Shown here: positions 358-39,988 of the stretch, one piece after another
Numbering within the stretch: position 1 is the first letter of the stretch
How the letters are laid out: each line of letters opens with the position of its first letter
Source of the DNA: an uncultured Eubacteriales bacterium
GTDB taxonomy: Bacteria > Bacillota > Clostridia > TANB77 > UBA1234
Assembly: GCA_949283575.1 (NCBI GenBank)
Contig: CASDSU010000005.1
Coordinates: 1-64,000, forward strand
Direction: 5' to 3'
DNA length: 64,000 nucleotides
Notes under the pieces: model-generated
Told to the model about the DNA's origin: nothing
Seen by the model: the letters and a program-made list of their open reading frames with translations, nothing else
The model's database searches: none
Position numbers and translations under genes: made by a program

Positions 358-1989
358 TTAAATATTTACATAAACTGATAGCTTAAGATGGAGAGTCGTT
401 ATCCTCACGGTGTAAGGAACCTCGACTTGCAATTCACCTGTAGCGGATAATTTCAATTTTGATACGTCTTTATTTCCAACGATGATAAGAATGTCATCTT
501 TGCTTTTTACATATGCTCTTGAATAAAGATCCTTATAGTCGAAATCATCAAATGATTCTATTTTGTTGGGAAGCTTGTTAAATTCGCTTATTATTGCTTT
601 AGCTCTAGTTTCTGCTGAATCGACTATCAGAATAGCGTTTTCAAGATTCATTTTTTCAATCGTTAAAGAAGATATCGTTTCCATGATTTCCGTGGTCATA
701 GAAGTGGAATAATCATCAAATTTACCGACAAATCCCTTTAATTGTTCCTTAAGAGAATTGATTCTCTCATCGATTTCATGGATCCTGTTTTTCTTTTCAT
801 CTACGTCATTTGAGGAAAAGCCCTTGATAAGCAATTCTTTAAAGTAACAGATGTTGTCTTTTATTTTTTTGGTTAGTAGTGCAAGGCCTAATTTAAATTC
901 ATCCACAGGAATGTTCTCGCCTTTGCAGTTTTTGGTGTGACGATTGCTGTTGCAGATTAGGAACCTTTTAGCTTTGACAAAATCCCTGCCATAGTAGTGG
1001 TTGACTTTGGAATTATAGTTACAGCCACAATGAGCGCAAACCACAAACCCTGTAAATTCGCTTACTGGATTCCTGCTTTCTCTATTTACCCTAAAATGCT
1101 CACATCTTTCATCAAGGACCGCTTGGACGTTATTCCATGTTTCTCTATCTGCGATAGGAGTGTGGCCGTTTCTCACGAGAACCATTTCTTCCTCGCCTCT
1201 ATTCTTGCTCGATCCAGTGGAACCGATGGCTGGCTTGATTGTTTTTTGGATTAATGCATCGCCCACATATTTCTCGTTCCTTAGGATCGAGCAGATTGTG
1301 TTGTGACCCCAGCGGTTATTTCCCGTAGGGCTAGGCACATGATTTTGCTCTAGGTATTTTATTATCATTGATGAGCCGCATCCTTCTAGGCACATGGAGT
1401 AAATGGTCTTTATCCATTTTGCCTCTTCGGGAACGATGGTGATTTCACCGTTGATTGTTTTATAGCCATAAAGGTTAGGCGGTAGTGCATATTTGCCTTC
1501 CTTCTTGTTTTTTGTATATCTCCATTTGACGTTTTCGCTGATGGTAGTTAGTTCTTCCTCGGCGAATTTAGCGCATAGCGTTATCATTTGGTCGCATTTC
1601 GTATCCAACGATGAGATCCCTTGTTCCTCAAAATAGATTTCAATGCCCTTTAGCCTAAATTCTCTGACTAGTTCTAGCATATCGATTAGATTCCTTGCGA
1701 ACCTTGATACTGATTTGACTAGGATGATGTCTATAAGGCCGATTCTGGCATTTTCTATCATAGTGATGAATTCTTTCCTATGAATCGCATCAGAGCCGCT
1801 TTTACCGTTATCGGGATAGATTCCAGCAAATTCCCAATGCGGGTTTTGGATGATAAGAGAGGTGTAATTTTTTATTTGCTCAGCCAAGGAAGTCTCTAAA
1901 ACCTCTTTGTCATTAGATATTCTTGCATATGCAGCAACCCTAAGCTTTCTGTCTTTAGGAATCGGATGTAATGATTTAATTTGCTCCAT
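358..1989 (-). CDS. Large serine recombinase (site-specific integrase)
   Basis: A 543-residue serine integrase that would catalyse integration or excision of a mobile element through a Ser-DNA intermediate. Residues 16-160 form the resolvase domain with the nucleophile at Ser25 in AYARIS and the VSRFARN motif near 94-100. About 170-290 is the recombinase DNA-binding domain. Cys318, Cys321, Cys346 and Cys355 form a zinc ribbon, and a coiled coil follows near 395-450. Length and order are normal for the family and no key residue is missing. The start ATG has an AAAGGAGG ribosome site and overlaps the end of another recombinase-like frame by 14 nt, as in tandem recombinase pairs of Firmicute elements. 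It is probably the mobility gene of this left island. Confidence 0.93.
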   Translation of the reverse strand: MEQIKSLHPIPKDRKLRVAAYARISNDKEVLETSLAEQIKNYTSLIIQNPHWEFAGIYPDNGKSGSDAIHRKEFITMIENARIGLIDIILVKSVSRFARNLIDMLELVREFRLKGIEIYFEEQGISSLDTKCDQMITLCAKFAEEELTTISENVKWRYTKNKKEGKYALPPNLYGYKTINGEITIVPEEAKWIKTIYSMCLEGCGSSMIIKYLEQNHVPSPTGNNRWGHNTICSILRNEKYVGDALIQKTIKPAIGSTGSSKNRGEEEMVLVRNGHTPIADRETWNNVQAVLDERCEHFRVNRESRNPVSEFTGFVVCAHCGCNYNSKVNHYYGRDFVKAKRFLICNSNRHTKNCKGENIPVDEFKLGLALLTKKIKDNICYFKELLIKGFSSNDVDEKKNRIHEIDERINSLKEQLKGFVGKFDDYSTSMTTEIMETISSLTIEKMNLENAILIVDSAETRAKAIISEFNKLPNKIESFDDFDYKDLYSRAYVKSKDDILIIVGNKDVSKLKLSATGELQVEVPYTVRITTLHLKLSVYVNI

Positions 1990-2407
1990 TTTTGCCTCCT
2001 TTCAAAACTACGACTTCATAATCCAGTGTTCTTTTTTCGTTTGAAACACTAGAAGAATAAGTGGGTACAAGTTGAAGTAGTGGATGAACCTCGGTAGTAG
2101 CAAGGCTATCTTTTGATACGATAAATCTTAATGAACCATCCTTCTTTCTTATCACCATTTTTATAACGTTTCTAATTAACCTATTAGTTGGATTATGTGC
2201 CTTATCGTTTTCAATCATGTGTTTTAGATGATTAGCATCAACTGTTAAATCCCTTAGTTCATAAATTGATTGGGTGATTCTTTCAAGTTTCCCTTTTTCT
2301 TCATTTAGCCTAAAGTTGATATCGTTGAATTCAATTTCGTTTGTTTTTGAATTGGTCGATATTGAAAGGCTTTTCTTCTTGGTGTCTAGACAACGAGCTT
2401 TATCCAA
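1976..2407 (-). pseudogene. C-terminal remnant of a second serine recombinase
   Basis: This 143-residue frame begins only at a TTG and lacks catalytic and zinc-ribbon domains. What remains looks like the far end of a serine recombinase: a charged helix near residues 22-50, then a VIKMVIRKKDGSLRF strand of the kind seen near the C-terminus of these enzymes. It runs straight into the intact recombinase with a shared ribosome site, the usual tandem arrangement. The N-terminal part was probably lost in a rearrangement near 2400-2470, where the divergent phage-type gene also seems cut. The assignment rests on layout and weak similarity. Confidence 0.5.
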
Positions 2408-2470: not shown

Positions 2471-2803
2471 TTGATGTACGCAGCTCAAGGAATAGATTAT
2501 TCAAAGCCCAACGTCCAGCATTCGACTCCTCAATTCGATAAGATAACCATCGACCTGGATCGAATAGATAGGATAGAAAAGAAAATCGCCTACTACGAAT
2601 CATTCAATGTCCTATGGGATAAATGGCAGAAGAAAATGACCCCTAGAGAGACAGACGTCTTCCATAAACGCTACATGCAAGATAAGGCGGTAGTGGACAT
2701 TTCTGTTGAGTTGCAGGTTTCAAATGTACGAATTTATGGACTTATAGGCCAATTAGAGGCTAAGTATGAGGAATTTACTAAAGAAAATTCTCAATACTTA
2801 TAG
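2471..2803 (+). CDS. DUF1492/RinA-like phage transcription regulator, probably N-truncated
   Basis: A 110-residue protein with a coiled helix (residues 25-55) and a C-terminal sigma-region-4-like helix-turn-helix around 58-95 (TPRETDVFHKRYMQDKAVVD). Such proteins drive late transcription in Firmicute phages. The only starts are TTG (2471) or the ATG after it, without a clear ribosome site. The frame stays open upstream to about 2405, coding a plausible continuation (ELGYARYL), so the natural N-terminus may have been lost at the junction with the recombinase remnant. It may therefore be non-functional. Confidence 0.55.
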   Translation: MMYAAQGIDYSKPNVQHSTPQFDKITIDLDRIDRIEKKIAYYESFNVLWDKWQKKMTPRETDVFHKRYMQDKAVVDISVELQVSNVRIYGLIGQLEAKYEEFTKENSQYL

Positions 2804-2816
2804 AGTAAATGTAATA

Positions 2817-2829
2817 AAAATGATATAAT
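2817..2829 (+). promoter_or_regulatory. Putative promoter (-10 region) of the defence operon controller
   Basis: The sequence AAAATGATATAAT carries a perfect -10 hexamer (TATAAT, 2824-2829). No good -35 is visible, but ACTTATAGAGT lies about 20 nt upstream, a partial palindrome where a controller could bind. The same 13 nt occur before the XRE gene of the second defence island (33114-33126). Confidence 0.55.
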
Positions 2830-2861
2830 CTTGTTTGACTACGAGATTCGGAGGGATTCGA

Positions 2862-3053
2862 ATGAAATATTGTGATGCTATCAAATGCCTAAGAAAAAAG
2901 CTTCTTCTATCTCAAACAGAGTTTGCAGAGAAGATGGGCGTGGCGTTTGTGACTGTTAATAGATGGGAGAACGGCAACAACGTTCCCACTTTTAAATATA
3001 AAAGAAAATTAGCACCTCTCTTCAAAGAAAACGGAATTGAGGTGGAAGAATGA
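2862..3053 (+). CDS. XRE-family controller of the restriction operon
   Basis: A 63-residue, single-domain helix-turn-helix protein (LSQTEFAEKMGVAFVTVNRW, residues 21-40). I chose the ATG at 2862, 8 nt after GGAGG, rather than an upstream start. It overlaps the methyltransferase gene by 4 nt, so the two are translationally coupled. Small XRE proteins upstream of restriction-modification genes typically act as controller (C) proteins that time methyltransferase and nuclease expression. It is clearly related to the XRE protein at 33142 (shared VAF-T-NRWEN core). Confidence 0.85.
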   Translation: MKYCDAIKCLRKKLLLSQTEFAEKMGVAFVTVNRWENGNNVPTFKYKRKLAPLFKENGIEVEE

Positions 3054-4297
3054 AAAGATATAGATTCATTGATTTGTTTGCTGGGATCGGTGGCTTTCAT
3101 CAAGCCTTGACCAATCTCGGCTGCAAATGCGTTTGTGCTTCTGAGATTGATGAAGACGCAATTAAAAGATATAAAGAAAATTTTCCTGATACCCCAGTGG
3201 TGGGAGACATAAATAAGACATACTCAAAACTCCCAGAGTTTGACATTCTTTGCGGCGGTTTCCCTTGCCAACCATTTAGTAAAGCAGGCAAGCAAGAAGG
3301 TTTTGGAGACAAAACAAGAGGCAACCTATTTTATAGAATTATGGATGTTCTCGACCTTCACCCGGAATGCAAGTTTGTCATTTTGGAGAACGTGAAGAAT
3401 TTGGCCGACAAGACTGAGAATTGGGACATCATTCAAAACGAACTGAGACAAAGGAATTTTTATGTTACAGATATGCCAATTATCCTATCACCTCATCAAT
3501 TTGGCATACCTCAAATCAGGGAAAGAGTCTACATTCTTGGAATCAGAAAAGATATTCGTGACGAAGCAAAATTACCAAACGGGTCAATTCATATGGAGGA
3601 TCTTGGCAGGCTTTTCTCGGCGAAAAGCATCTGCTCTGGCGATGATGCCAGAAAGATACTAGAGCCATGTGATGACGAGAGTTACTTTATCAGCGAATAT
3701 GAAGAGCATCTCATAAGAATGTGGTATGAATTCAAGGTTCAAACAAATTTTGATGTTGTCGGTGTTCCTGTTTGGGTTGAGTATTTTGGCTACGGGCTGA
3801 CCGATAGACAGTTTGAGAAGTTTGTTGACCACAAAGGCGAAACTATAAAAACCATGCCTGATTGGAAAAAGAAGTTTGCCTTAAAAAACAGGGCTTTCTA
3901 TTTGAAACACAAAGATTTCATCGACAGATGGATTGAGCGTTACAACGTCATGCAATTACCGTTGGGGTATAAGAAATTTGAATGGAATTGCAGTGGTGCT
4001 AGAGGCATCGAAGATACCATTATCCAATTCCGCCAATCTGGGATCAGGGTTAAAAAACTCAATTATTTCCCAGCTTTGGTCGCAATCAATAACACTCCAA
4101 TAATCTTTGACCAAAATCATCAGAGATTCAGAAGAATCACACCTAGAGAAGCTGCGAATTTGCAGAGCTTCAACCGCGATTATGTGTTGGGTAATGATGC
4201 GAGGATTTATAAACAATTAGGCAATGCTGTAAATGTAGTCATAATCGAAAAATTAGCAAAGAAATTAATGTCGTTTGAAAGGAGCGGAAAGAAATGA
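3050..4297 (+). CDS. C5-cytosine DNA methyltransferase (Dcm family)
   Basis: A 415-residue enzyme that transfers a methyl group from S-adenosylmethionine to C5 of cytosine. Motifs are in canonical order: I DLFAGIGG (8-15), IV GGFPCQPFSKAG with catalytic Cys73, VI ENVKNL, VIII QIRERVYILG and X QLGNAVN near the end. Length is normal and no motif is missing. It is coupled by 4-nt overlaps to the controller upstream and the GHKL ATPase downstream, so it is most likely the protecting methylase of this operon. The target sequence cannot be read from the protein. Confidence 0.95.
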   Translation: MKRYRFIDLFAGIGGFHQALTNLGCKCVCASEIDEDAIKRYKENFPDTPVVGDINKTYSKLPEFDILCGGFPCQPFSKAGKQEGFGDKTRGNLFYRIMDVLDLHPECKFVILENVKNLADKTENWDIIQNELRQRNFYVTDMPIILSPHQFGIPQIRERVYILGIRKDIRDEAKLPNGSIHMEDLGRLFSAKSICSGDDARKILEPCDDESYFISEYEEHLIRMWYEFKVQTNFDVVGVPVWVEYFGYGLTDRQFEKFVDHKGETIKTMPDWKKKFALKNRAFYLKHKDFIDRWIERYNVMQLPLGYKKFEWNCSGARGIEDTIIQFRQSGIRVKKLNYFPALVAINNTPIIFDQNHQRFRRITPREAANLQSFNRDYVLGNDARIYKQLGNAVNVVIIEKLAKKLMSFERSGKK

Positions 4298-5874
4298 AAA
4301 AACTAAACATTAGGCCAGACACTGGCGTATATGGAACATATAAAAGAATTAGTTATCAGCCATGGACCGCTCTTGCTGAGTTCGTCGATAACTCAACGCA
4401 AAGTTTCTACGACCATAAAGAAGAATTATTCAACACTAAATACTATAAGGGATTAGAAGTTGAAATCATTTATAGAGAGGATCCATCCTGTGGCGATGAA
4501 ATAAAAATTATTGATAACGCCTTTGGCATGGATTATTCCGACTTCCAAAGAGCAATTATCTTGGATAGGCCACCAAAAAATACAAAAGGAAGAAACGAAT
4601 TCGGTATGGGCCTTAAGGCTGCCGCATGCTGGTTTGGCAATTTGTGGTCCGTAGAAACAACCTCGCTTGGAAGTTATTTTAAATACAAAGCCGAGATTGA
4701 TATTGATAATTTGGTTAAATACAAAGCCGAGACAATAGATGTTGAAGAGGAACAGGTTAGCCCTAAAGACCACTATACAGTAATAACAATCCAAAGATTG
4801 AATAAAAAAATTAAAGGCAAGAGAATCGAAAAGAAAATCCATGAATTGCTTTCTTCAATCTATAGGGCCGATTTAAGGACTGGTGATGTTAAGATTTTCT
4901 ATAACGGTGAGCAACTTGAGTTCGAAGAGGTAGAACCTTATACAGACGAAAGTGGAAAAACATGGAGAAAAGATGTCGAATTTACTATTCCTCATAGAGA
5001 CGAAGAACTTCATGTTAAGGGATTCATTGCTATAAGAATCCCAGGTAGCACAAGGAACGCTGGTTTAACTCTTTTAAGAAGAGGCAGAGTTATTGTTGGT
5101 GGTCCAGAGAAGAACTATCGTCCTTATGAAGTTTTCGGTCCGTCAAACTTATATACATATCAACGTTTATATGGTGAATTGGAAATGGATGACTGGCCAG
5201 TCACACAAGCAAAAGATGCCTTTGACTGGAGCAATGAAGATTTAGAAGCTAAGTTCATTGATAAGCTTGTTGAGTTGTCAAAGGACTACCATGAATACGC
5301 TGAAAAATTAAGAACCAGAGAAAAAGTTAAACTCGATGATGTTGTCGAGCAATTGACAAAAGATTTAACAAGTAACAGCAAAATATCAAACGCTGTAGTC
5401 AATATCAAAAAAACCGAAGATGTGTCTGCATCTCAAGAAGAAATAGAAGTTGATGAAGATTTATTTCCTGATTCTTCTTCTTCATTAATCGAAGATCAAG
5501 TTGAAAACGAAAGCGCTGGCGTTGGCGTTGACATTGAGGATAATTCACCCCTTCAAATTAATCTTTCGTATGCCGGGAACGACTATGATTTTACATTCAT
5601 CTTTGACGACAAAAACCCAAGGAGCGAATGGTTGAAGCTAGAAGTTGAAGACAAAAGCATAAATAAATACACGATTACGCTAAACACCAGACACTCATTC
5701 TTTTATCCGTTTATTCAAAAAAAGGATTTTTTGGTGCTTCTTGCAAAGTTTGCTACAGCGTTAGTAATAGCTGAGATAAACGCATGGTCTTTGGCGACAG
5801 ATGGTCTGGTTTCTCCTTCAAGCATCAGAAATGAGATGGGAAGAATATTGGAGGATTTGAAGTCAAATGAGTGA
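4294..5874 (+). CDS. MORC/MutL-like GHKL ATPase of a restriction system
   Basis: A 526-residue GHKL-fold ATPase. The N box is EFVDNS (Glu29, Asp32, Asn33), motif G1 is DNAFGMD (74-80) and motif G2 is EFGMGLKAA (102-110), as in Hsp90/MutL/MORC ATPases that dimerise on ATP binding. The middle has a transducer-like S5 region. The C-terminal half (about 370-526) is acidic and family-specific. Overlaps of 4 nt with the methyltransferase and 8 nt with the Z1 gene place it in one translation unit. MORC-like GHKL proteins encoded beside methylases and Z1 helicases are known from comparative genomics of restriction systems; its role as an ATP-driven clamp for the nuclease is inferred. Confidence 0.88.
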   Translation: MKKLNIRPDTGVYGTYKRISYQPWTALAEFVDNSTQSFYDHKEELFNTKYYKGLEVEIIYREDPSCGDEIKIIDNAFGMDYSDFQRAIILDRPPKNTKGRNEFGMGLKAAACWFGNLWSVETTSLGSYFKYKAEIDIDNLVKYKAETIDVEEEQVSPKDHYTVITIQRLNKKIKGKRIEKKIHELLSSIYRADLRTGDVKIFYNGEQLEFEEVEPYTDESGKTWRKDVEFTIPHRDEELHVKGFIAIRIPGSTRNAGLTLLRRGRVIVGGPEKNYRPYEVFGPSNLYTYQRLYGELEMDDWPVTQAKDAFDWSNEDLEAKFIDKLVELSKDYHEYAEKLRTREKVKLDDVVEQLTKDLTSNSKISNAVVNIKKTEDVSASQEEIEVDEDLFPDSSSSLIEDQVENESAGVGVDIEDNSPLQINLSYAGNDYDFTFIFDDKNPRSEWLKLEVEDKSINKYTITLNTRHSFFYPFIQKKDFLVLLAKFATALVIAEINAWSLATDGLVSPSSIRNEMGRILEDLKSNE

Positions 5875-8098
5875 TTTATATAAAGTTAACGAAATAAAAA
5901 AACAAGATGCTGACAAGTTTGGCGATATCATCACAGATGGCTATTTTGCTTCCGCTGTTTCAAGAGAAATGATGAGAAGCGATGATTCAATGACAGACGA
6001 TATCGTGAACAACGTTTTCGCAAATGCCTCATCGATATTAAACGAATGCCCTAATCCAAGTGGCAGTGGTGAGTTCAAGAAAACCGGCATTGTAATTGGC
6101 AAAGTACAAAGTGGTAAAACCTCAAACTTCATAGCTTTATTGGCACTGGCGTTTGATAATGGATATAACCTTGGCGTTGTCATAGGTGGCAACACAACTG
6201 AGTTGTTAACTCAAAACGTTAATAGGATTAGATCATCATTTAATGTTCCAGTGGATAGACTAGTTGTTCTCCATTCTAAAGACAATCATAACAAGATTAC
6301 TCCTGATGCCATAAGGGGGTTTATTGAAAATGGTCAAAAAGTATTGATTGTTACTTTGAAGTCCCCTCAAGTAAAAACAAAAAAGCATATGTCTAGGGTG
6401 TCGGAACTCTTTGATGATCCAGTTATGGCTAACGAAAACACAATCATAATCGACGACGAAGGCGACCAAGCCACACTAAACTCAAAGGCATATTCAAAAG
6501 ACATAGCAAATCAATTAGCTCAAACTTACAAGGTTGCAATCGAAATAAAGGAAAAAATAAAAAGACATTGTTTTATTTCAATCACGGCAACTCCACAAGC
6601 AAATATTTTGATTAAAACGACAGATGTTCTTTCACCGGATTTTGGTAAACTAATTTATCCAGGCAGAGGCTATTGCGGTCTTTCTGTGTTCCATGGAGAG
6701 GAACAGGACAAATATGTGAAAGTGATTCCTGAAGAGGAAGATTCGCTTCTTGATTCAGATGGTGGCGTTCCTGCATCATTTTATGATGCTTTGTCATCAT
6801 TTTATGTCAGTAACGCCATAAGAAAAAGCCGTGGTGACATGAAGGTTCATTCCATGCTTATTCATCCATCAATGAAAAAATTCGACCACGCTAAGGTTGA
6901 AGAAAAAGTGAATAAACTTGTCAAGCAATGGAAAGCATATGCAAAAAACGGCATCAAGGATTTTGGCTATATTAATGCTCTCCGACCAAAACTAATCAAA
7001 TCGTACGAAATGTATAAAGCCGATGGCGTTGTAACCAGAAGTTTTGGGGAGATTGAAGGCCAAATTTTAGAGTGCATCCGTCAATCATCAGATGCTTTGG
7101 TATTCAACAGCGATCAAATTAACGCTAGGTCGGATGCTGAATTATATAAAACGAGAATTTATATTGGTGGAAATATACTTGATAGAGGCATCACAATTAA
7201 AGGCTTAGCGATTACATATATCATCAGAAGAGCGAAAGGCTATAGCACCGTAGACAATACGGAGCAAAGAGCAAGATGGTTCGGATACAAAAATGTGCCT
7301 GGATTCAGCGATTATATCGACATCTGCAGAGTGTGGGCTACAGAAGCTATTAAAAAAGATTTTGCTACGATAAACGAGTCTGATGAAGACATGTGGGCTT
7401 CAATTGAGAGAAATCTTTCCAGAGGAAAGAATTTCAAAGAGCTTCCAAGATACTTTTTATTACAGGATGACGTTTCACACAAATTAAAACTTACAAGACC
7501 TCAGGTCGCTAGGACAAAAGAACTCTTTTGGTCAGAATGGAAGACACAAACATATTACGTTAAAGATAAAGATCAAGCTGCTTTTAATATGCAATTAGTT
7601 GAATCTTTCAAAAGCAATCACAAGAGCAATAATGTTGTGAGAGATTTCAAAGGAGACAACCAACATTTATATATTTACGATGTTAAATTATCCGATTTTT
7701 TGGAGAACTTGCTTGATAAATTCAAATTCTGTCAAGATGAGATGAATTATGCCGGCTATCTAAACAAACTTGAGGCATTGATCACGGAAAGAAAACTCGA
7801 TGATCTAATTGATGTTGTATGGGTGAGAATAAATACAAACGAAAAACGTAAGATTTTAGAAGACGGAAGTATTCAACAATTTTTCAGAGGCCGTGACATG
7901 AGGCCAAACGAGAAAGGTGAATACAATTATTTGGGCGATAGGCACACATGCGACGATAGACCAGACAAGATTCAAGTACAGATTCACTATATCAAGGCAA
8001 GCAATATGCCAGATGTAGATTTCTATTCACCATCTATATGTATTTATGTACCGAATCATTACATTGATGAAGTGAAGATTATTGGGAGGGAAGATTAA
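5867..8098 (+). CDS. Z1-domain SF2 helicase-like ATPase
   Basis: A 743-residue ATPase matching the Z1 domain of restriction systems. It has Walker A GKVQSGKT (78-85), a DEAD-box-like Walker B IIDDEGDQA (195-202), motif III TATPQAN (240-246), motif V GGNILDRGIT (434-443) and motif VI EQRARWFGY (466-474). These show an active-looking SF2 motor with no visible nuclease domain of its own. It overlaps its upstream neighbour by 8 nt and its downstream neighbour by 1 nt. It probably translocates or remodels DNA for the nuclease encoded next; this role is inferred. Confidence 0.9.
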   Translation: MSDLYKVNEIKKQDADKFGDIITDGYFASAVSREMMRSDDSMTDDIVNNVFANASSILNECPNPSGSGEFKKTGIVIGKVQSGKTSNFIALLALAFDNGYNLGVVIGGNTTELLTQNVNRIRSSFNVPVDRLVVLHSKDNHNKITPDAIRGFIENGQKVLIVTLKSPQVKTKKHMSRVSELFDDPVMANENTIIIDDEGDQATLNSKAYSKDIANQLAQTYKVAIEIKEKIKRHCFISITATPQANILIKTTDVLSPDFGKLIYPGRGYCGLSVFHGEEQDKYVKVIPEEEDSLLDSDGGVPASFYDALSSFYVSNAIRKSRGDMKVHSMLIHPSMKKFDHAKVEEKVNKLVKQWKAYAKNGIKDFGYINALRPKLIKSYEMYKADGVVTRSFGEIEGQILECIRQSSDALVFNSDQINARSDAELYKTRIYIGGNILDRGITIKGLAITYIIRRAKGYSTVDNTEQRARWFGYKNVPGFSDYIDICRVWATEAIKKDFATINESDEDMWASIERNLSRGKNFKELPRYFLLQDDVSHKLKLTRPQVARTKELFWSEWKTQTYYVKDKDQAAFNMQLVESFKSNHKSNNVVRDFKGDNQHLYIYDVKLSDFLENLLDKFKFCQDEMNYAGYLNKLEALITERKLDDLIDVVWVRINTNEKRKILEDGSIQQFFRGRDMRPNEKGEYNYLGDRHTCDDRPDKIQVQIHYIKASNMPDVDFYSPSICIYVPNHYIDEVKIIGRED

Positions 8099-9036
8099 TG
8101 ATTACAGTTCAAGAAATATTAAATACAATCGCCATCCCAAATGAAGGTTTGATTCTTAAAAAGAAGGATGTGTTTTACTGGGGCAAAAGCAGCAGTGGAG
8201 ACATTGTTTATGGAATTGAATCTAAAAACAAAAATCTCATCTCAATGACCCAGACAACCAGATATTTAAAAATATGTCTAAATACCACATTTAATGTTTC
8301 CTTTGGTGATTTGAGCGAACAAAAGAATCTATCTTTAATTATCCTCAAGCAAGAAGGGATAAAGTTTTTAGATATTTTTATCAGGCTTACTGACACGATT
8401 GACAGTGAATTGTCGGATCAGGAATTATTGACTTATTTTCTTAATTTAAAAGACTTGTTCTCTAACGACAGTAAAAAGTCTATAAAAGAACTGCAAGGGC
8501 TTTATGGCGAATTATACGCGATGGTCTATTTAAAAGAGAAAGAACAAATTAATATTGCTCAGTTTTATCAATCTGAAGATAAGAGAAAGTTTGACTTTTC
8601 AATTGATGATAACAAGAAAATTGAAGTCAAAACAACAACGCTTCCTGCAAGAATCCATCATTTCAAATTGGATCAACTCAATGTGTTAAGATACGACATA
8701 TTGGTTGCTTCCATAATGCTGCAAAAAGATGACGGTGGATTAAGTCTTAACGCCTTAATAAATAGAGCTAAAGACTTATTTTCCAATAATTTAAAATTAT
8801 TGATACACATAGAAAATATGGTTAAAAACATTGACGTCGATGTTCTTGAAACCTTGAAATATAACAAATCTTTCATTGATGGTAACATCAAATTTGTTAG
8901 AGCAATTGATATTCCAAGAATTCAGGAAAAAACTATGGATGGGGTATTCAATGTTGAATTCGATTCTGACTTGTCAAACTGCAAGCAAATTGATGATAGT
9001 GAAATCTGCGAATGGATTTCGCTACGAGAGGCATAA
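8098..9036 (+). CDS. DUF4420-like PD-(D/E)XK nuclease
   Basis: A 312-residue protein with a PD-(D/E)XK nuclease core: Glu138 in LYGEL, Asp166 in KFDFSI and the Glu176-Val-Lys178 triad strand (KIEVKTTT). Layout and length match the DUF4420 family of putative restriction nucleases. Its start overlaps the stop of the Z1 gene (TAATG). It is the only recognisable nuclease in the operon and the likely cleaving subunit, with the GHKL and Z1 proteins as ATP-dependent partners. Activity is unproven, but the three acidic/basic residues expected of the active site are all present. Confidence 0.82.
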   Translation: MITVQEILNTIAIPNEGLILKKKDVFYWGKSSSGDIVYGIESKNKNLISMTQTTRYLKICLNTTFNVSFGDLSEQKNLSLIILKQEGIKFLDIFIRLTDTIDSELSDQELLTYFLNLKDLFSNDSKKSIKELQGLYGELYAMVYLKEKEQINIAQFYQSEDKRKFDFSIDDNKKIEVKTTTLPARIHHFKLDQLNVLRYDILVASIMLQKDDGGLSLNALINRAKDLFSNNLKLLIHIENMVKNIDVDVLETLKYNKSFIDGNIKFVRAIDIPRIQEKTMDGVFNVEFDSDLSNCKQIDDSEICEWISLREA

Positions 9037-9118: not shown

Positions 9119-9256
9119 ATGAAAAATAAAGAATTTACTTTTATTGATTTATTTGCAGGTATTGGTGGAATCAGATTGGGCTTTGAACATGTAGGCGGCA
9201 AATGTGTATTCTCGTCTGAATGGGATGCAGATGCTTGCAAGACATACGTACTATAG
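9119..9256 (+). pseudogene. Truncated second C5-cytosine methyltransferase (first 45 codons)
   Basis: ATG at 9119 opens a frame that reads as the start of another Dcm-type enzyme: [20 protein letters not shown] (motif I at residues 7-26) and [13 protein letters not shown] (motif II region). It then hits TAG after residue 45, long before the catalytic motif IV. The break at about 9246 is a sequence junction: what follows is an unrelated frame. It is not a copy of the methyltransferase at 3050, since the residues differ. This is the right-hand relic of the island. Confidence 0.85.
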
Positions 9257-31928: not shown

Positions 31929-32010
31929 CTTAGAATTCGATATTTTTATATAAATTAGTGGGTGAACAATCCTATCTCATTTGCTCCTTAACTCTTGGAG
32001 GTGCATATGC

Positions 32011-33120
32011 ATGATAAGAGTTATAGAGTTGTTTGCTGGCATAGGAAGTCAGCGAGAAGCATTAAATAGAGCCAATATCGGGCATGAAATAGCAGCGATT
32101 AGTGAAAATGATAAATATGCAAGTAAAGCTTATGAATTACTTCATGGACCAACTACTAATTTAGGAGATATAAGAAAAATAGAAAGGATGCCTAAAGCTG
32201 AATTATGGACTTACTCATTTCCTTGTACTGATATTAGTCTAGCAGGAAAAATGAAAGGTTTTGAAAAAGGTAGTAATACTCATTCATCACTGTTATGGGA
32301 AGTTCAAAGACTACTTGAAGTAGCGAAAGAAAATGATGAACTACCTAAATATTTATTGATGGAAAATGTGAAGAATATAGTATCAAAGAAGTTCAAACCA
32401 TTGTTTCAAGTGTGGTTAGATTATTTAACTAATCTAGGATATAAGAATTTTTATAAAGTTTTGAATGCTAGGGACTATGGTATTCCACAAAATAGAGAAC
32501 GCTGTTTTATGGTTTCAATTAGAGATAAAAATGCTAACTATGAATTTCCAAAACCTATTAAATTAACTAAAAAGCTTGCAGATCTTCTAGAAAACGATGT
32601 AGATGAGAAATATTTTCTTAGCGAAAAGCTCATCACTTGTTTTACTGATATGGAGGATAGACATGGTCTTATTCGTGGTCTTAGATTTAAACCAAAATAT
32701 ATGAATGAAACTGACTATGCTTTCACTATTACAACGCACGCAGGATATCGACCAACTGATAATTACATTATTATTCCTCAAGCAACTAAAGAAGGATATG
32801 AACTAGCTAAAGTGGGTGATGGTGTTTATACAAATCGATGTCCATCAAAGAGAGGTGTGGTTCAAAAATCAATGATTCCTACTATCAAAACATCAGTAAG
32901 TGATATAGGAGTGGTTACTAATGATAAAGATGAACTCATATCAATTAGAAGGTTAACACCCAGAGAGTGTTGGCGACTTATGGGCTGGTATGATAATGAA
33001 ATAGATAAAGTCGTTAATGAGTTTAGTAACAATCAACTTTATAAGATGGCGGGGAATGGGATAGTGGTGGATGTGTTAGAAAAAATAATAGAATCACTTT
33101 TAAAAAACGCTATAAAATGA
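32011..33120 (+). CDS. C5-cytosine methyltransferase, first of the LlaJI-like operon
   Basis: A 369-residue Dcm-type enzyme: motif I IELFAGIGSQREA (5-17), motif IV YSFPCTDISLAGK with catalytic Cys72, motif VI MENVKNI, motif VIII PQNRERCFMVS, target-recognition region about 190-320 and motif X KMAGNGIVVDV. The PCT variant of the usual PCQ motif is shared by one subgroup of C5 methylases. I chose ATG 32011, 9 nt after GGAGG; an earlier start in the same frame has no ribosome site. It is one of two C5 methylases in the operon, as in LlaJI and BsuMI systems, where each modifies one strand of an asymmetric site. Confidence 0.92.
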   Translation: MIRVIELFAGIGSQREALNRANIGHEIAAISENDKYASKAYELLHGPTTNLGDIRKIERMPKAELWTYSFPCTDISLAGKMKGFEKGSNTHSSLLWEVQRLLEVAKENDELPKYLLMENVKNIVSKKFKPLFQVWLDYLTNLGYKNFYKVLNARDYGIPQNRERCFMVSIRDKNANYEFPKPIKLTKKLADLLENDVDEKYFLSEKLITCFTDMEDRHGLIRGLRFKPKYMNETDYAFTITTHAGYRPTDNYIIIPQATKEGYELAKVGDGVYTNRCPSKRGVVQKSMIPTIKTSVSDIGVVTNDKDELISIRRLTPRECWRLMGWYDNEIDKVVNEFSNNQLYKMAGNGIVVDVLEKIIESLLKNAIK

Positions 33121-33126
33121 TATAAT
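33114..33126 (+). promoter_or_regulatory. Putative internal promoter (-10 region) of the XRE controller
   Basis: AAAATGATATAAT, identical to 2817-2829, overlapping the methyltransferase stop codon. The predicted transcript would start about 33133, leaving only about 9 nt before ATG 33142, so the controller mRNA may be nearly leaderless, as for several known C-protein genes. Confidence 0.55.
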
Positions 33127-33141
33127 ATGCAAGTAATTTTT

Positions 33142-33333
33142 ATGGGTTATTCTAAGAAAATATTGATTATAAGAGCAAGTTTAGGACTCACACAAGAAGA
33201 ACTGGCTAAGAAATTAAATGTTGCTTTCTCCACAATAAATAGATGGGAGAACGAAAAAACAATGCCTAGTAAAAGATATAGATATTTATTGGATTCTATG
33301 TTTGAAAAATGTATAAAAGAGGTGAACAAATAA
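33142..33333 (+). CDS. XRE-family controller of the second restriction operon
   Basis: A 63-residue helix-turn-helix protein (LTQEELAKKLNVAFSTINRW at residues 16-35). ATG 33127 is an alternative but would overlap the promoter, so 33142 is preferred; neither has a ribosome site. Its end overlaps the start of the adenine methyltransferase (TAATG). The sequence is related to the controller at 2862. Likely a C protein setting the order of methylase and nuclease expression. Confidence 0.8.
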   Translation: MGYSKKILIIRASLGLTQEELAKKLNVAFSTINRWENEKTMPSKRYRYLLDSMFEKCIKEVNK

Positions 33334-34985
33334 TGGGTGATTCTTTAAATAATATCATTAATCCAATTATTACTTTTTTAAAAAGAAATTACAGTCATTT
33401 ATACATTGATTCTATTTTGGACGAATTTAAAAAATTAATCAGTGAAATTGTGATAAGTCCAAATGATGATTCTACTTTTTATGATTTTGATTCACTACAA
33501 AAATTTTTATCTGACTTTAACGAAAAATCTTCTAAAAGAAAGGATAATGGAGTTTATTACACTCCATCTGATTTATGTGATTTTATAAATTCGAATTCAA
33601 TAAAGTTATGGCTTGAAAAATTAAATGCTAATGAATTTGATGGTTTCGATTTTGAAACGTTGCCTTATTTGAAGTTTTGCTTTAAATCTACTATTTTTGA
33701 TCCAACTTGTGGTAGTGGTGAATTTCTAATGTCAATAGTCAAATACAAATTAACATTTTTGAAAAAGAGAAAGGAAAATATTTCTACAGAAGATATAAAA
33801 AAGGTAATAGAGACAATTTTTGGTAACGATATTGATCATTTTTCAACTTTTATTTGTAAAGTGAGATTATTTTTATTAATTTTAGATTTTATCAATCAAA
33901 ACAATATTGACTTTCCATATGGAATTTCAGGGATTTTAAATAATCATTTTTTTAATGAAGATTATATAAAAGGACCAATTAATAATTTGTCTTTTGATTT
34001 AATTGTAGGTAATCCCCCTTATATCGAAGATTCAAAATATAAAATTACATGCACTAATAATGTAAAGTATGGGAACGTATATGCAAATGTACTTTTTAAT
34101 TCGTGTGAAAATTTGAATAATGAAGGCGTATTAGGGTTTGTAATACCTTTATCATATATGTCTACCCCGCGTATGAAAAAAATTAGAAATGATTTAAAAT
34201 CATTTTTGACCGAACAATATATACTATCTTTTAATGATAGGCCTGATTGCTTATTTACTAATGTGCATCAAAAATTGTGCGTTTTAATCTGTAAAAAATC
34301 CTGTAGGAAGATTAATAGAATATACACAAGTAATTATTATTATTGGTATAAAGAAGAAAGACCATATTTGTTTGATAAAGCTAATGTAATTCTAAATAAT
34401 TTTAGTAACGAAAATTTTATTCCAAAGATTGGGAATGCAATTGAAAACTCAATTTACGAAAAAGTAACATTGATTTCTTCAAATAGTTTGTTATCATTTT
34501 TATCGGAAAATAAAGGAAATACTTTATATTTAAATAGTAGGGCTGCATTTTGGATAAAGGCTTTTAGAAATGATCACAATTTTCAAAATTCATATTTACG
34601 TTTTAACTGTAAAAGTACTAAAGAGTCCGTTATTGTATTCAGTATTTTAAATTCTTCCTTGTTTTGGTGGTTTTGGGTTGTAGTTTCTGATTGTTGGCAT
34701 ATTACTAATAAGGAACTCAGTGCTTTTAAAATTCCTAATATATCAGATAGCATATACAAAAAGCTTATAAAAGCATCTTCAAACTTAGAAAAAAAATTAG
34801 AAGAGACTAAGGTTTTTGTTGGAACTAAACAAACAGAATATGAATACAAACATAGAGAATGCATTAAAGAAATACAAATCATTGATGCTTTAATAGGTGA
34901 AATATATGATCTTTCAAAAGATGAAAGTGATTTTATTAAAAGTTATGCATTTAGATATAGAGTAAGTGGAGGGAATAACAGATGA
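33333..34985 (+). CDS. N6-adenine DNA methyltransferase (Eco57I-like class)
   Basis: A 550-residue enzyme: motif I FDPTCGSGEFLMS with Asp123, catalytic motif IV VGNPPYIED with Asn227, then a C-terminal target-recognition region ending in a coiled coil (about 470-510). It methylates N6 of adenine using AdoMet. Length and order resemble the methylase half of Eco57I-type proteins, but no nuclease motif is visible in the 80-residue N-terminus. The start is ATG 33333 behind GAGGTG, and the end overlaps the next C5 methylase by 4 nt. An adenine methylase inside a LlaJI-like operon is unusual. Confidence 0.88.
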   Translation: MGDSLNNIINPIITFLKRNYSHLYIDSILDEFKKLISEIVISPNDDSTFYDFDSLQKFLSDFNEKSSKRKDNGVYYTPSDLCDFINSNSIKLWLEKLNANEFDGFDFETLPYLKFCFKSTIFDPTCGSGEFLMSIVKYKLTFLKKRKENISTEDIKKVIETIFGNDIDHFSTFICKVRLFLLILDFINQNNIDFPYGISGILNNHFFNEDYIKGPINNLSFDLIVGNPPYIEDSKYKITCTNNVKYGNVYANVLFNSCENLNNEGVLGFVIPLSYMSTPRMKKIRNDLKSFLTEQYILSFNDRPDCLFTNVHQKLCVLICKKSCRKINRIYTSNYYYWYKEERPYLFDKANVILNNFSNENFIPKIGNAIENSIYEKVTLISSNSLLSFLSENKGNTLYLNSRAAFWIKAFRNDHNFQNSYLRFNCKSTKESVIVFSILNSSLFWWFWVVVSDCWHITNKELSAFKIPNISDSIYKKLIKASSNLEKKLEETKVFVGTKQTEYEYKHRECIKEIQIIDALIGEIYDLSKDESDFIKSYAFRYRVSGGNNR

Positions 34986-36079
34986 AAACTATCGATTTAT
35001 TTTCTGGATGCGGTGGGCTTTCGCTTGGATTTGAATGGGCAGGCTATACAATCTCGCAAGCAGTTGAGTTTGATAAAGAAATTGCTCGATCGTATATTGC
35101 TAATCATAAAGATACGGAAATTATAATTGATGATATTAAAAATGTCGACAATAATAAAATTTTCAAAAAAGGTAGTGCTGAAGTTATTATAGGTGGACCG
35201 CCATGTCAAGGATTTTCGATGGCTGGAGCTAGAATTAGAGATGGTTTTATAGATGATCCAAGAAATTATTTGTTTAAGCATTATTTTAACGTCGTAAAGG
35301 AAGTTATGCCTAAAATTTTTGTTATTGAAAACGTAAAAGGACTGCTAACAATGCAAAATGGGAAAATCTTAGCTGAAATTTTTAAATTATTCTCAAATGA
35401 AAAATTGTTAGATGGTCATAAATATTTTTTGCATTATAAAGTTGTCAAAGCAGTAGAAATTGGCATTCCGCAAAAAAGGGAAAGAGTCATTATAATAGGT
35501 TCATTAGATAAAGACTTTGACATGGAATATCTATGGAATGTTGCTACCAATGAAATATTGAAAGACAAACCTCATTTTTTTGATAGAGTAACAGTTAGAG
35601 ATGCAATTGGTAATTTGCCAAGTCCAACAATTGATGGAAAAATAAATAATCCTGCAGCTATAACTAACTATCAAGAATTTCTGAAAACAGAGGATAAATA
35701 TATTTATAATCACGTTAAAACAAACCATACATATAAGTCTATTGAAAGAATAAAGAAAATAGCATGTGGAGAAAATTATACAGTTTTAAATGAAAAAATT
35801 AATTCTGTTCACAGTGGAGCATATGGCAGATTATGTTGGGATGAACCTTCCCCAACAATCACTACTAGATTTGATACTCCTGCCGGAGGAAGATTTATAC
35901 ATCCAACTGAGAATAGAACCATTACTCCTAGAGAAGCTGCGAGACTTCAAAGTTTTCCAGACGATTTCGTTTTTGTAGGTAATCGCACCACAATAAATAA
36001 AGTGATTGGGAATGCTGTACCACCAAAAATTGGTTATTTTTTAGGGGTTTTTGTTAAAGGATTATTAGGGAGGTGCTGA
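34982..36079 (+). CDS. C5-cytosine methyltransferase, second of the operon
   Basis: A 365-residue Dcm-type enzyme: motif I TIDLFSGCGGLSLGF (3-17), motif IV GGPPCQGFSMAG with catalytic Cys75, motif VI IENVKGL, motif VIII PQKRERVIIIG, target region about 185-290 and motif X VIGNAVPPKIGYF. It differs clearly from the C5 methylase at 32011. It overlaps the adenine methylase upstream by 4 nt and precedes the McrB-like gene by 2 nt, so methylases and nuclease are in one translation unit. Confidence 0.94.
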   Translation: MKTIDLFSGCGGLSLGFEWAGYTISQAVEFDKEIARSYIANHKDTEIIIDDIKNVDNNKIFKKGSAEVIIGGPPCQGFSMAGARIRDGFIDDPRNYLFKHYFNVVKEVMPKIFVIENVKGLLTMQNGKILAEIFKLFSNEKLLDGHKYFLHYKVVKAVEIGIPQKRERVIIIGSLDKDFDMEYLWNVATNEILKDKPHFFDRVTVRDAIGNLPSPTIDGKINNPAAITNYQEFLKTEDKYIYNHVKTNHTYKSIERIKKIACGENYTVLNEKINSVHSGAYGRLCWDEPSPTITTRFDTPAGGRFIHPTENRTITPREAARLQSFPDDFVFVGNRTTINKVIGNAVPPKIGYFLGVFVKGLLGRC

Positions 36080-36081
36080 GT

Positions 36082-38715
36082 ATGAAGGATTTATTAGAAG
36101 AGAAAATAGAATCTTTGGATAAAGCAAATGAATATGAATGCTGGTATTTAGTAAAGCAAACTGTAGATTTTACTAGTCTTTGCTATAAAGTTAAGGCTTT
36201 AAGCAACTATCAACGAGGCAGCAAAGCAACGAATTTGGAAAATTTCATCAATAATTACATATCTTCAATTAAAAAGGCAAAACCACATTTAACTATTGAA
36301 GAAAATTATAGACAGTTAAGAATTGCAGCTTATTTTGGCTTAATAAAAATGACTGATGCTAAATATGAAAATGCCTTGATTACAAATGTATTTTATGAAA
36401 TTGAGACTCTTTGCAATGGAGAATTTGAGAAAACTAATCTTTATCAAGAAATAATAGATAGACAAATAGAAAAAATATATGTTTCTTCTAATATAGATGA
36501 AGGAAAACAAAATGTAAGAAAAGAATTTACTATATTTCCTGCCATTTTTCTTTATAAATTATTGTTAGAAATTGGAAATAGCACTGGGAAATATTCAATC
36601 ACTTTAAATGAATATCGTTATCTAGTTACAACAACAAAAAAATACGAAGATTTTATAGATACATTAATTTTAATTAAATTATTGCGCAATAATCCTAATG
36701 CAAACATAAAATTAGCAACTTTTAGAACTAAATTTGATAATAGAATAAATCAAGCTTTAGCGTTATTGAGCACTTTAAAATTTGATAAGGATAACGTAAG
36801 CATAAATCCAATAAAATTAGATGAAGTGAAGGCGAAAGTCTATAATTATGAATGCCATAAAAATGAAATAGAGCAAACTAATTATATTAATTTCTTGTGT
36901 TCTAATAGTGGTTTTTTAACTTATAATTCCAAGCAAAACATGGAATATTTATCTCCTGAATGGCTAAAATCAAAAGAACATTTATATATTACATTCAATA
37001 AGGAAGCTGAAACTTTTGTTACATTATTTAATCAAAAATACGGTATAGAGGCTTTAAAAAGGATTGACAAAAAACAACTTGCCGAATATCTATTTTTAGG
37101 CAAAAGAGAAGATAATTTGTGTCATGAACTCGAATATAATGAAACTTCAAAAAAATTATTTGGATCAATAAGTGGTGGCTATTCATATACATACCCTTGT
37201 TTTTATAAACAAGCAACTTTGTCATGGGTCACAGGCAGTTCGAGAAAAAACAAAACCATATCTCAAGAAGAAGCTAACGAGATTGCTGAAGATACTTTAA
37301 ATAAGTTGATTGATGGCTATAACATAATCCTTTCATATAAAGATAGGCTTTTAAATAAAGAAACATATTTAGAATTATATATTTCATTAGTCGAAAAAAT
37401 AGGAAGTTTAGCTGATAAACAATGGGTAATTAAATACTATACTATTTTATTTTCTAATTTATTTTCGCCTTTTTATAGTGATGAGTGGCAAAAGAATGCG
37501 CTTAAAGCATTAGAATGCGAACCAGATGATAATAATTATGTTCAAAATGGAATTATAACTCTTGTTGCTTTAGAAGCTAATATTACACCAATTGTATTAT
37601 CTAGAATAATATACGATATTATCGATGGTAAATATAAAACAGAAAAGCCAACAACAGAAGACATGGGTTCAGAAGAAAAGAACTTAAATAGCAAATCCAG
37701 AATTAAAGGCGGAGAAAATGTAATTGTTTATGGTGTTCCGGGTGCAGGTAAGAGCCATTTAGTTAAGGATGAATATTTAAATGGAGACGAAAATGAAGAA
37801 TATTATGAGAGATTAGTTTTTCACCCTGATTATACTTACTCTGACTTTGTTGGTCAGATTATGCCAATTGTAGACGCAGAAAAAAGAGTAACTTATGAGT
37901 TTACGCCCGGTCCATTTACTAGAATTTTAAAAAAGGCATATCGTGATCCTGAACATAAATATTCTTTGGTTATTGAAGAAATAAATCGTGGTAATGCTGC
38001 GGCTATTTTTGGTGATATCTTCCAATTATTAGATCGCAAATTGGATGGCGAAAGTGAATACAGAATCACAAATAAAGATATTGCCAAAGTTGTTTATGGC
38101 GAAAAATATATTGATAAAAAAATATATATTCCATCAAATATGAGCATTATTTGCACAATGAATACATCAGATCAAAATGTTTTCACTTTAGATACAGCTT
38201 TCCAAAGAAGATGGATTATGAGATTAGTTTCTAATTCATTTGATGGTGATACAAGCGGAATAGGTAAAGTAGAAATTTTAGATGCTGGTTTAACATGGGA
38301 ACAATTCTGTAAAACAATTAATAGCGAAATATTAGATAAATCACAATCATTATCATCATCGGAAGATAAACGTTTAGGCACACATTTTGTAAGAGCAGAA
38401 GATTTGAAATATGATCCTAATGAAAATTCTAACGATCCAACTATTAAAATTAAAGCTCAACATCAAAATAGATTATTTGCAGAAAAAGTTATCAAGTACT
38501 TGTGGGATGATGTCTATAAATATGATAGAACGTCTCTATTTGATTCGGACTACAAGAGTTTAGAACAAGTAATTAATGATTTTATAAAATCTACGCACAT
38601 TGAGAGATTCAAAATATTCAAGCAAGATATTCGCGAATACTTAAAGCAATTAGCTGATGAAAATTCAAAAAATAAGCAACCAAACAATGATTCAAACACT
38701 GAAAGCAATGGTTAA
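36082..38715 (+). CDS. McrB-like AAA+ NTPase (R1 subunit, LlaJI/BsuMI type)
   Basis: An 877-residue restriction subunit. The N-terminal 500 residues are helical and probably hold the DNA-recognition part. The C-terminal AAA+ domain has Walker A GVPGAGKSH (about 551-559), Walker B IEEINRG (about 631-637) and the McrB signature MNTSDQN (about 693-699), where GTP-specific McrB proteins have MNTAD. In McrBC-type enzymes this hexameric motor translocates DNA and activates the nuclease encoded next. ATG 36082 follows GGGAGGTG; the frame opens 9 nt earlier with GTG. Intact. Confidence 0.9.
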   Translation: MKDLLEEKIESLDKANEYECWYLVKQTVDFTSLCYKVKALSNYQRGSKATNLENFINNYISSIKKAKPHLTIEENYRQLRIAAYFGLIKMTDAKYENALITNVFYEIETLCNGEFEKTNLYQEIIDRQIEKIYVSSNIDEGKQNVRKEFTIFPAIFLYKLLLEIGNSTGKYSITLNEYRYLVTTTKKYEDFIDTLILIKLLRNNPNANIKLATFRTKFDNRINQALALLSTLKFDKDNVSINPIKLDEVKAKVYNYECHKNEIEQTNYINFLCSNSGFLTYNSKQNMEYLSPEWLKSKEHLYITFNKEAETFVTLFNQKYGIEALKRIDKKQLAEYLFLGKREDNLCHELEYNETSKKLFGSISGGYSYTYPCFYKQATLSWVTGSSRKNKTISQEEANEIAEDTLNKLIDGYNIILSYKDRLLNKETYLELYISLVEKIGSLADKQWVIKYYTILFSNLFSPFYSDEWQKNALKALECEPDDNNYVQNGIITLVALEANITPIVLSRIIYDIIDGKYKTEKPTTEDMGSEEKNLNSKSRIKGGENVIVYGVPGAGKSHLVKDEYLNGDENEEYYERLVFHPDYTYSDFVGQIMPIVDAEKRVTYEFTPGPFTRILKKAYRDPEHKYSLVIEEINRGNAAAIFGDIFQLLDRKLDGESEYRITNKDIAKVVYGEKYIDKKIYIPSNMSIICTMNTSDQNVFTLDTAFQRRWIMRLVSNSFDGDTSGIGKVEILDAGLTWEQFCKTINSEILDKSQSLSSSEDKRLGTHFVRAEDLKYDPNENSNDPTIKIKAQHQNRLFAEKVIKYLWDDVYKYDRTSLFDSDYKSLEQVINDFIKSTHIERFKIFKQDIREYLKQLADENSKNKQPNNDSNTESNG

Positions 38716-38728
38716 CTGAAGGTCAAAC

Positions 38729-39988
38729 ATGAATGAAGAAAAGAGCTTAATTGATTATTGTCATGTTGATAAAAATGATGATGGAGATAGATTTGTTGGA
38801 CTAAAATCGATTGATGATAATGGTCATCAAATAGTAATGGTCTACTTTCCTTGCGGATATAATTTGCCTTCTGATGAAGTTGCGATTAGGAATGATATTA
38901 TAAATTTATTTAGAATTTTAGCGGATTTTAGTAAGGGTGAAGATATATTACTTAAGGTAAAATCAAATGTAGCCAACGTGTCTGTAAACTTTCCAATAAA
39001 AGCATATTTGGATATTATCCAGTATTATTTGGAATACAAAACTTTTTATGCCGAAACCGAAACTACTTTTAAAACAGATACAAGAGGAAAAGCCAACTGG
39101 GCAAAAACTATAAAAGATCAGGTTCCATCAATACAAAATGGAAATTTGTTTTATATTAAAAAAACAGTTAGAGATACACAACCAATGAAGAATCAGCTAA
39201 TCACTGAGATACACAGATATTGTACTCATGAAAGCTTTTCTAAACTTGGGTGGTTATTTGGAACTTCAATGATACCAAGAAACACTGACATTGTTCCTAA
39301 AAATACTGATGATAAGTCTTTTATTCCAAGATTTATATCAATTATAAACGATCAACTTAAAAAGACTTTTGAAGATAGAATAAAGAAGTTGCTAAATGCA
39401 ATGCTAAGTGTTTTGAATTATAAAAACACCGAAGATAATTCGAATAGGTATTATTTTGGAACGGATCGTTTTGAATATGTTTGGCAAGGAATGATTGATA
39501 GACTATTTGGTATTCGAGAAAATAAACAAGATTACTTCCCTAGAACTAAATGGATTCCTAGATATCTTAAAGATCAAAATAAAAATAAACATCCGCTAGA
39601 ACCTGATAGCATTATGATTTATAAAGATGAATTCTATGTTCTCGACGCAAAATACTATCGCTATGGACTAAGTGGAGATGTTGATCATCTTCCAAATTCT
39701 TCTGACATCAATAAGCAAATAACCTATGGTGAATATGTTTATTTGCATAAAAATAAAGACCCTTATAACGCTTTTATAATGCCATTTAATAGAAAGGACA
39801 ATCCTTTCAACATTAGTGAAGACATGTGTAATGTCGCCGAAGCATCAGCTAATTGGAAAACTGAAGGTCATAAATTTGAGAAAATACAGGGGATTTTAGT
39901 GGATACAAGATTTTTGATGTATCAATATGCATCCAATAATAATGATAAATATAAAGAAAAATTATCAATTGCTATAGAAAGTAATTAA
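38729..39988 (+). CDS. LlaJI/McrC-like restriction nuclease subunit
   Basis: A 419-residue protein with a C-terminal PD-(D/E)XK site: Asp293 in EPDSIMIY and Asp306-Ala-Lys308 in YVLDAKYYRYG. The remaining part resembles the LlaJI family R2 subunits that partner McrB-like NTPases. It follows the NTPase by 13 nt and closes the operon before a terminator. Together with the two C5 methylases it defines a LlaJI/BsuMI-like restriction system. The cleavage site is unknown. Confidence 0.85.
   Translation: MNEEKSLIDYCHVDKNDDGDRFVGLKSIDDNGHQIVMVYFPCGYNLPSDEVAIRNDIINLFRILADFSKGEDILLKVKSNVANVSVNFPIKAYLDIIQYYLEYKTFYAETETTFKTDTRGKANWAKTIKDQVPSIQNGNLFYIKKTVRDTQPMKNQLITEIHRYCTHESFSKLGWLFGTSMIPRNTDIVPKNTDDKSFIPRFISIINDQLKKTFEDRIKKLLNAMLSVLNYKNTEDNSNRYYFGTDRFEYVWQGMIDRLFGIRENKQDYFPRTKWIPRYLKDQNKNKHPLEPDSIMIYKDEFYVLDAKYYRYGLSGDVDHLPNSSDINKQITYGEYVYLHKNKDPYNAFIMPFNRKDNPFNISEDMCNVAEASANWKTEGHKFEKIQGILVDTRFLMYQYASNNNDKYKEKLSIAIESN

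Follow-up and report, generated by a model that had tools for sequence, protein, structure and literature searches.

Genes and features at the locus

We analysed a window of 64,000 nucleotides from a contig of an uncultured Eubacteriales bacterium. Five open reading frames at positions 2862–9036, with coordinates as first read, encode an XRE-type helix-turn-helix (HTH) protein, a C5 cytosine methylase (Dcm), a GHKL ATPase, a Z1 motor protein and a nuclease (Table 1). Neighbouring genes, which the first-pass annotation of this DNA had described as overlapping or touching, overlap by 1–8 nt: XRE/Dcm and Dcm/GHKL join at ATGA, GHKL/Z1 by 8 nt and Z1/nuclease at TAATG. These overlaps make a single translation unit likely. 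The HTH protein is a probable autoregulator.

Table 1. Features of the cassette (window coordinates)
Feature	Position	Strand	Evidence
Mobile homology block (cassette)	2801..9018	+	single 6218-column match, 95.4% to locus L019; both flanks unrelated
Probable extended -10 promoter, TGATATAAT	2821..2829	+	consensus match only; within block, identical in L019
XRE-type HTH protein, 63 aa, accessory	2862..3053	+	HTH_3 6e-10 (Pfam)
C5 cytosine DNA methylase (Dcm), 415 aa	3050..4297	+	PF00145 3.4e-64; TIGR00675 1.4e-66
Dcm target-recognition region, aa 175–345	3572..4084	+	variable first half; core KFEWN...QxRxSGxRxK near-invariant in cassette Dcms
MORC-family GHKL-S5 ATPase, 526 aa	4294..5874	+	PF13589 (HATPase_c_3) 1.2e-14; AF2 pLDDT 89
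GHKL motif I, E29-x-x-D32-N33	4378..4392	+	invariant in cassettes
MORC signature GLTLLRRGRVI, aa 257–267	5062..5094	+	matches GhXhhpXXRhl
DEAD-Z1 SF2 motor protein, 743 aa	5867..8098	+	PF10593 2.7e-37; PADLOC Helicase_II 3e-39
Walker A of Z1, GKVQSGKT (K84)	6098..6121	+	G78, Q81–T85 invariant in 72 cassettes; K79 91%
Walker B of Z1, DDEGD, aa 196–200	6452..6466	+	D196, D197, E198, D200 invariant; G199 91%
Z1 domain with DNTEQRARWFG (aa 463–473)	6776..7432	+	profile and conservation
DUF4420 PD-(D/E)XK nuclease, 312 aa	8098..9036	+	PF14390 1.7e-18; AF2 pLDDT 93.6
Nuclease active site, E138...D166...E176-V-K178	8509..8631	+	conservation in 69 sequences

The earlier assignments to the Z1, GHKL (HATPase) and DUF4420 families, made from the letters alone, were all borne out by profile matches. 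The Z1 motor additionally gave a weak Pfam match to ResIII (1.9e-4). Matches to PADLOC 2023 models were obtained for the methylase and for the motor (as a type II helicase), and none for the GHKL or DUF4420 proteins; NCBIfam returned dcm together with weak partial matches to MzaC and MzaD. Comparison of 72 cassettes demonstrated that the catalytic motifs are intact in all the encoded proteins. The motifs that the annotation had called complete are invariant or nearly so across the 71 other cassettes, and the residues it had singled out (MORC Asp32, Z1 Lys84 and nuclease Lys178) are correctly placed and conserved there. Dcm carries motifs I–X and has M.HhaI and M.HaeIII as solved relatives. Sequence searches of solved structures with the MORC, Z1 and nuclease proteins gave no useful match.

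The MORC family is defined by the motif GhXhhpXXRhl in the S5 domain (Iyer et al. 2008, PMC2292703). Residues E29/D32/N33, D74 and G104–K108 of the GHKL protein are invariant or nearly so in the 71 other cassettes. Its AlphaFold2 (AF2) model, built from 65 sequences (the alignments for structure modelling leave out one plasmid-record sequence and a few other rows), aligned best, among PDB structures, with SMCHD1 (Z 24.4, 3.5 Å over 305), MORC3 (Z 23.7, 3.0 Å over 292), MORC2 (Z 23.2) and MORC4 (Z 22.9), scores that span no more than 1.5 Z; TRAP1/Hsp90 ranked below the MORC proteins at Z about 20. The signature motif and this fold match of the model show the GHKL protein to be a genuine member of the MORC family, so the label ‘MORC-like’ given at first was an understatement. 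Residues 343–526, outside the structural matches, are partly conserved (W446, N464, H467 and E494).

The Z1 motif DNTEQRARWFG agrees with the published pattern DThhQXuRhFG at D, Q, A, R, W, F and G, and deviates at the T and at one hydrophobic position. Across 69 nuclease sequences, E138 and K178 never vary, and conservation is at least 90% at D166 and E176; Q193 is invariant or nearly so in the 71 other cassettes. The nuclease model comprises a beta-rich N-terminal domain (1–108) and a nuclease domain at about 127–298 (pLDDT 93.6). The latter is predicted to adopt the restriction-endonuclease (RE) fold, given middling VIA-align scores with Hjc (Z 7.7), DpnI (6.6) and EcoRV (5.5) that are backed by the active-site residues; Foldseek with the same model gave no significant match. 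Ms6760 was the best structural match of the N-terminal domain (Z 4.2). DUF4420 was the sole Pfam family above cut-off in the nuclease, with no PLD or B3 domain.

Distribution, mobility and surroundings of the cassette

A scan of 84,980 species genomes for relatives of the MORC protein yielded 367, of which 80 were kept. Among the 73 loci with enough flanking sequence on both sides, Dcm lies directly upstream of MORC, followed by Z1 and then the nuclease, in 63; the nuclease directly follows Z1 in 66. Recurrence of this order, together with a twin of 95.4% identity between other flanks, indicates that the association of these genes is not due to chance. The gene-neighbourhood survey thus upheld four members of what had been described as a five-gene operon, and the conserved unit is Dcm-MORC-Z1-nuclease. 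The XRE gene is accessory: a conserved unit of five was rejected, as XRE recurs only in the near-identical L019 copy among surveyed loci. A fused HTH_17 domain takes the place of a separate XRE protein in 14 of 60 cassette Dcms.

Hosts of the cassette include Bacilli, Clostridia, Treponema (spirochaetes), Bacteroidales (Bacteroidota), Chloroflexi (Chloroflexota) and archaea, and a Rathayibacter plasmid carries the same four adjacent genes. Three cassettes from Mycoplasmopsis and Spiroplasma (L059, L083 and L084) look broken under genetic code 11 and may be intact, because TGA is read as Trp in these organisms. Z1 genes are rare among 191 relatives of the host: 10 genomes have one, and the five other members of the host genus all lack it. 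The Z1 proteins of host relatives are long (about 890–950 aa), and five such loci have an MZA-like gene order. This rarity and the differing Z1 proteins suggest that the window copy probably came from outside the close relatives.

The twin at L019 (Bacilli, goat reticulum) matches window positions 2801–9018, promoter and XRE gene included, and its flanks are unrelated to the window on both sides. Ratios of dN/dS against L019 are 0 for XRE, 0.008 for MORC (codon-aligned), 0.02 for Dcm, 0.03 for Z1 and 0.06 for the nuclease. The cassette is therefore a mobile, maintained unit under strong purifying selection. Just past its end, at 9119–9256, another dcm gene, unlike the first, breaks off 45 codons after its start with motif I still intact; we read it as the scar of a lost neighbouring system. 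This decay beside the cassette, and the serine recombinase genes 0.9 kb upstream of it, would fit ordinary mobile cargo, non-functional in its present host; however, every reading frame and motif is intact and dN/dS stays at 0–0.06, so we regard dead cargo as highly improbable.

The recombinase region at 358–2407 (minus strand) encodes a large serine recombinase of 543 aa (phrog_95 integrase) and then, perhaps, a fragment of another; the contig begins at window base 1, so this element is cut. At 13 of the surveyed loci, seven of them on viral contigs, a large serine recombinase adjoins the cassette. No match to the cassette was found in 50,697 phage records, nor any cassette relative in a single-protein scan of viral contigs; a profile scan of viral contigs detected 11 cassette loci, including those seven. 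As the seven adjoin a recombinase, the cassettes may be cargo of prophages or other integrative elements rather than phage genes. In L100–L105 and L107 the recombinase lies mostly ~0.5–0.7 kb upstream of Dcm, often at the contig end, and in L107 a transposase-like ORF (6844–7671) between Dcm and MORC splits the operon. Further downstream on the contig of the window, about 67 kb from its cassette, lie two more large serine recombinases in tandem (contig 76608–79590; L112 12608–15590).

Other putative defence genes were observed. At window positions 31981–39988, by a tRNA-Leu gene, lie two C5 methylases (covered by profile search), an N6-type methylase-like ORF, an 880-aa McrB-like AAA+ ORF and a 419-aa ORF, a putative second restriction system that by eye resembles the LlaJI/BsuMI type. 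Downstream of the L019 twin (6705–8892), a 219-aa ORF and a 513-aa N6-methylase-like ORF form a putative restriction-modification (R-M) pair, which would place the block in a defence island there.

Methylase exchange and the shared recognition core

Pairwise identities across 71 complete cassettes and the window were strongly correlated among MORC, Z1 and the nuclease (r 0.91–0.95), whereas those of Dcm correlated with each of the three at r 0.43–0.46. Thus, these three proteins, the cutting module, evolve together as a unit to which Dcm does not belong. This co-evolution leads us to infer that the three proteins associate physically. In approximately unbiased (AU) tests on 32 taxa, with clades picked for testing after inspection of the identity tables, the Dcm data rejected the MORC clades {L045, L047, L048} and the L020 group (p 1e-63 and 3e-51). 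The phylogenetic signal indicates that Dcm is exchanged between cassettes. Within Dcm, identity to L019 dips to 0.84–0.89 at window positions 3001–3400 (the 5' part of the gene), through mostly synonymous changes, and is 0.94–0.99 over the next 2 kb, a pattern that points to possible recombination inside the gene.

In its second half, the recognition region of Dcm has a mean identity of 0.48, compared with 0.51 for the catalytic core, and contains a recognition core in which K309, E311, W312, Q326, R328, S330, G331, R333 and K335 are invariant. When defined by a strict pattern, the core is present in 64 of the 71 Dcms from cassettes. Elsewhere in the surveyed loci, C5 methylases have it only where a MORC gene adjoins; when the best Dcm matches from 398 genomes of the phylum were examined, it was confined to the window and one other MORC cassette. 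One locus, L110, has MORC-Z1-nuclease with a Dcm of a different type, located downstream and devoid of the core. The PADLOC DruM2 model matches Dcm end to end (8e-90), which raises the possibility that Druantia also uses related Dcms.

Exchange of Dcm between distant cutting-module lineages, combined with an invariant core, suggests that most members share the same or a compatible target, and one family-wide target appears the simplest reading. Doubt arises mainly because the Dcm recognition region varies greatly in its first half (mean identity 0.24), which would allow members to have different specificities. Pairs with exchanged Dcms contained no region of the cutting module replaced along with Dcm, and no domain swap. 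A segment-by-segment scan for a target reader on the restriction side, based on co-variation with the Dcm recognition region, gave weak scattered peaks, at Z1 601–630 (z 4.9) and in the nuclease N-terminal domain (z about 3). Exchange and the invariant core together predict the same methylation motif for Dcms of distant cassettes. If that prediction is correct, a single sequence motif could be used to forecast the target of a widely shared system, the MORC and nuclease of which go unrecognised by PADLOC 2023.

Proposed function and comparison with known systems

We propose that the cassette is probably a mobile, ATP-dependent restriction-modification system. Dcm would methylate a target cytosine in host DNA, while MORC, Z1 and the nuclease would form one complex. 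At an unmethylated target, a MORC dimer would close on the DNA in an ATP-gated manner, as in eukaryotic MORC2, and the Z1 motor would translocate, as in H.CglI; licensing by clamp and motor would then activate the DUF4420 nuclease, leading to cutting of invading DNA. These roles are assigned by analogy, that of the motor with CglI and that of the clamp with MORC2, a DNA clamp that compacts DNA in an ATP-dependent manner. Compaction of this kind and the strong MORC fold match could favour topological silencing or clearance, with MORC and Z1 compacting or stripping foreign DNA according to its methylation and the nuclease nicking or being secondary. This alternative is improbable in our judgement, given a nuclease gene that directly follows Z1 in 66 of the 73 well-flanked loci and an active site that is invariant.

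A broader version of the restriction-modification reading is considerably more speculative, and we put it forward as a possibility that we would not expect to hold in full: that cassettes of bacteria and archaea share one recognition sequence, that Dcm is freely exchangeable, and that MORC is an obligatory ATP-gated clamp that reads methylation and licenses Z1 and the nuclease. Under this version, acting as such a clamp would be the ancestral function of the MORC family, seen here in a simple system of four proteins. In eukaryotes, MORC proteins are silencers of transposons and viruses, and the role of their ATPase on methylated DNA is debated. With a true MORC protein, a methylase, a motor and a nuclease side by side, the cassette makes the link between the MORC ATP cycle and 5-methylcytosine testable in four genes.

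Several described systems share parts of this architecture. CglI and NgoAVII combine a C5 methylase, a DEAD-Z1 motor and a separate nuclease subunit, as the cassette does, but their nuclease is of PLD + B3 type and they lack MORC, where the cassette has a PD-(D/E)XK DUF4420 nuclease and MORC; in CglI, ATP hydrolysis by the DEAD-Z1 subunit depends on its nuclease partner and on DNA, and the subunit is a probable translocase (PMC4267653, PMC5737866). CglI-like enzymes are marked by ATP-dependent translocation and by cleavage close to an asymmetric site. The VcSduA/paraMORC3 Shedu protein, a GHKL-nuclease fusion that defends against phage and requires its GHKL domain to do so (PMC12137116), likewise has a GHKL ATPase controlling a PD-(D/E)XK nuclease. 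It is, however, a single protein fused to DUF4263 without methylase or motor, whereas the cassette MORC ends at 526 aa and no nuclease domain was detected in it by Pfam or in the AF2 model. Miller et al. 2022 (PMC9523054) described a putative defence system that shares the core of Z1, PD-(D/E)XK and cytosine methylase, with MORC in some types, and that differs from the window in its 925-aa Z1 and its six-gene or AIPR types. Five surveyed loci (L113–L117) resemble that system or MZA; the window does not.

MZA (mzaABCDE) is called a validated defence system in a passage of PMC9523054 that cites Gao et al. 2020. The cassette has the same order of GHKL ATPase, Z1 and DUF4420-type PD-(D/E)XK, but its Z1 is 743 aa rather than about 910, and its own type of Dcm lies directly upstream. 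MZA contains distant relatives of the three module proteins, and the bacterial order of the host also has true MZA-like loci; one of them, L114, matches MzaB (1e-92), MzaC (1e-158) and MzaD (2e-21), likewise below the curated cut-offs, and these matches support its MZA-like order. The cassette might accordingly act in an abortive-infection style, sensing phage DNA or replication and killing or arresting the cell instead of directly cutting incoming DNA; Dcm would then serve as a safety mark. Such a mode is unlikely here: AIPR (MzaE, PF10592) is absent from the whole host genome, which is 100% complete, the window MORC has no MzaB match at E 0.01, and scores against the equivalog cut-offs are 113 bits versus 1500 for MzaC, mainly through the Z1 domain, and 23 versus 420 for MzaD (3e-5). 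Membership of MZA was rejected on the same grounds.

The earlier remark that the mechanism is poorly described does not hold for the CglI DEAD-Z1 subunit, MZA or VcSduA, and stands for the exact four-gene type, on which our search of the open literature, with most subscription papers outside its reach, found no experiment. The annotation was also right that such an association had been predicted by comparative genomics: operon type 3 of Iyer et al. 2008 unites MORC, a distinct SFII helicase with a C-terminal Z1 domain and an RE-fold E-D-ExK protein, with a cytosine methylase that is frequent but not obligatory (PMC2292703). The window cassette has the S5 motif, the Z1 helicase, the E-D-ExK nuclease and the methylase, and nothing essential differs. 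After that 2008 prediction, related sets were described in 2017 and 2022, and the window copy is a further member of the type. To the 2008 description our analysis adds the fixed compact order and two apparently new observations, that Dcm is exchanged and that its recognition core is shared.
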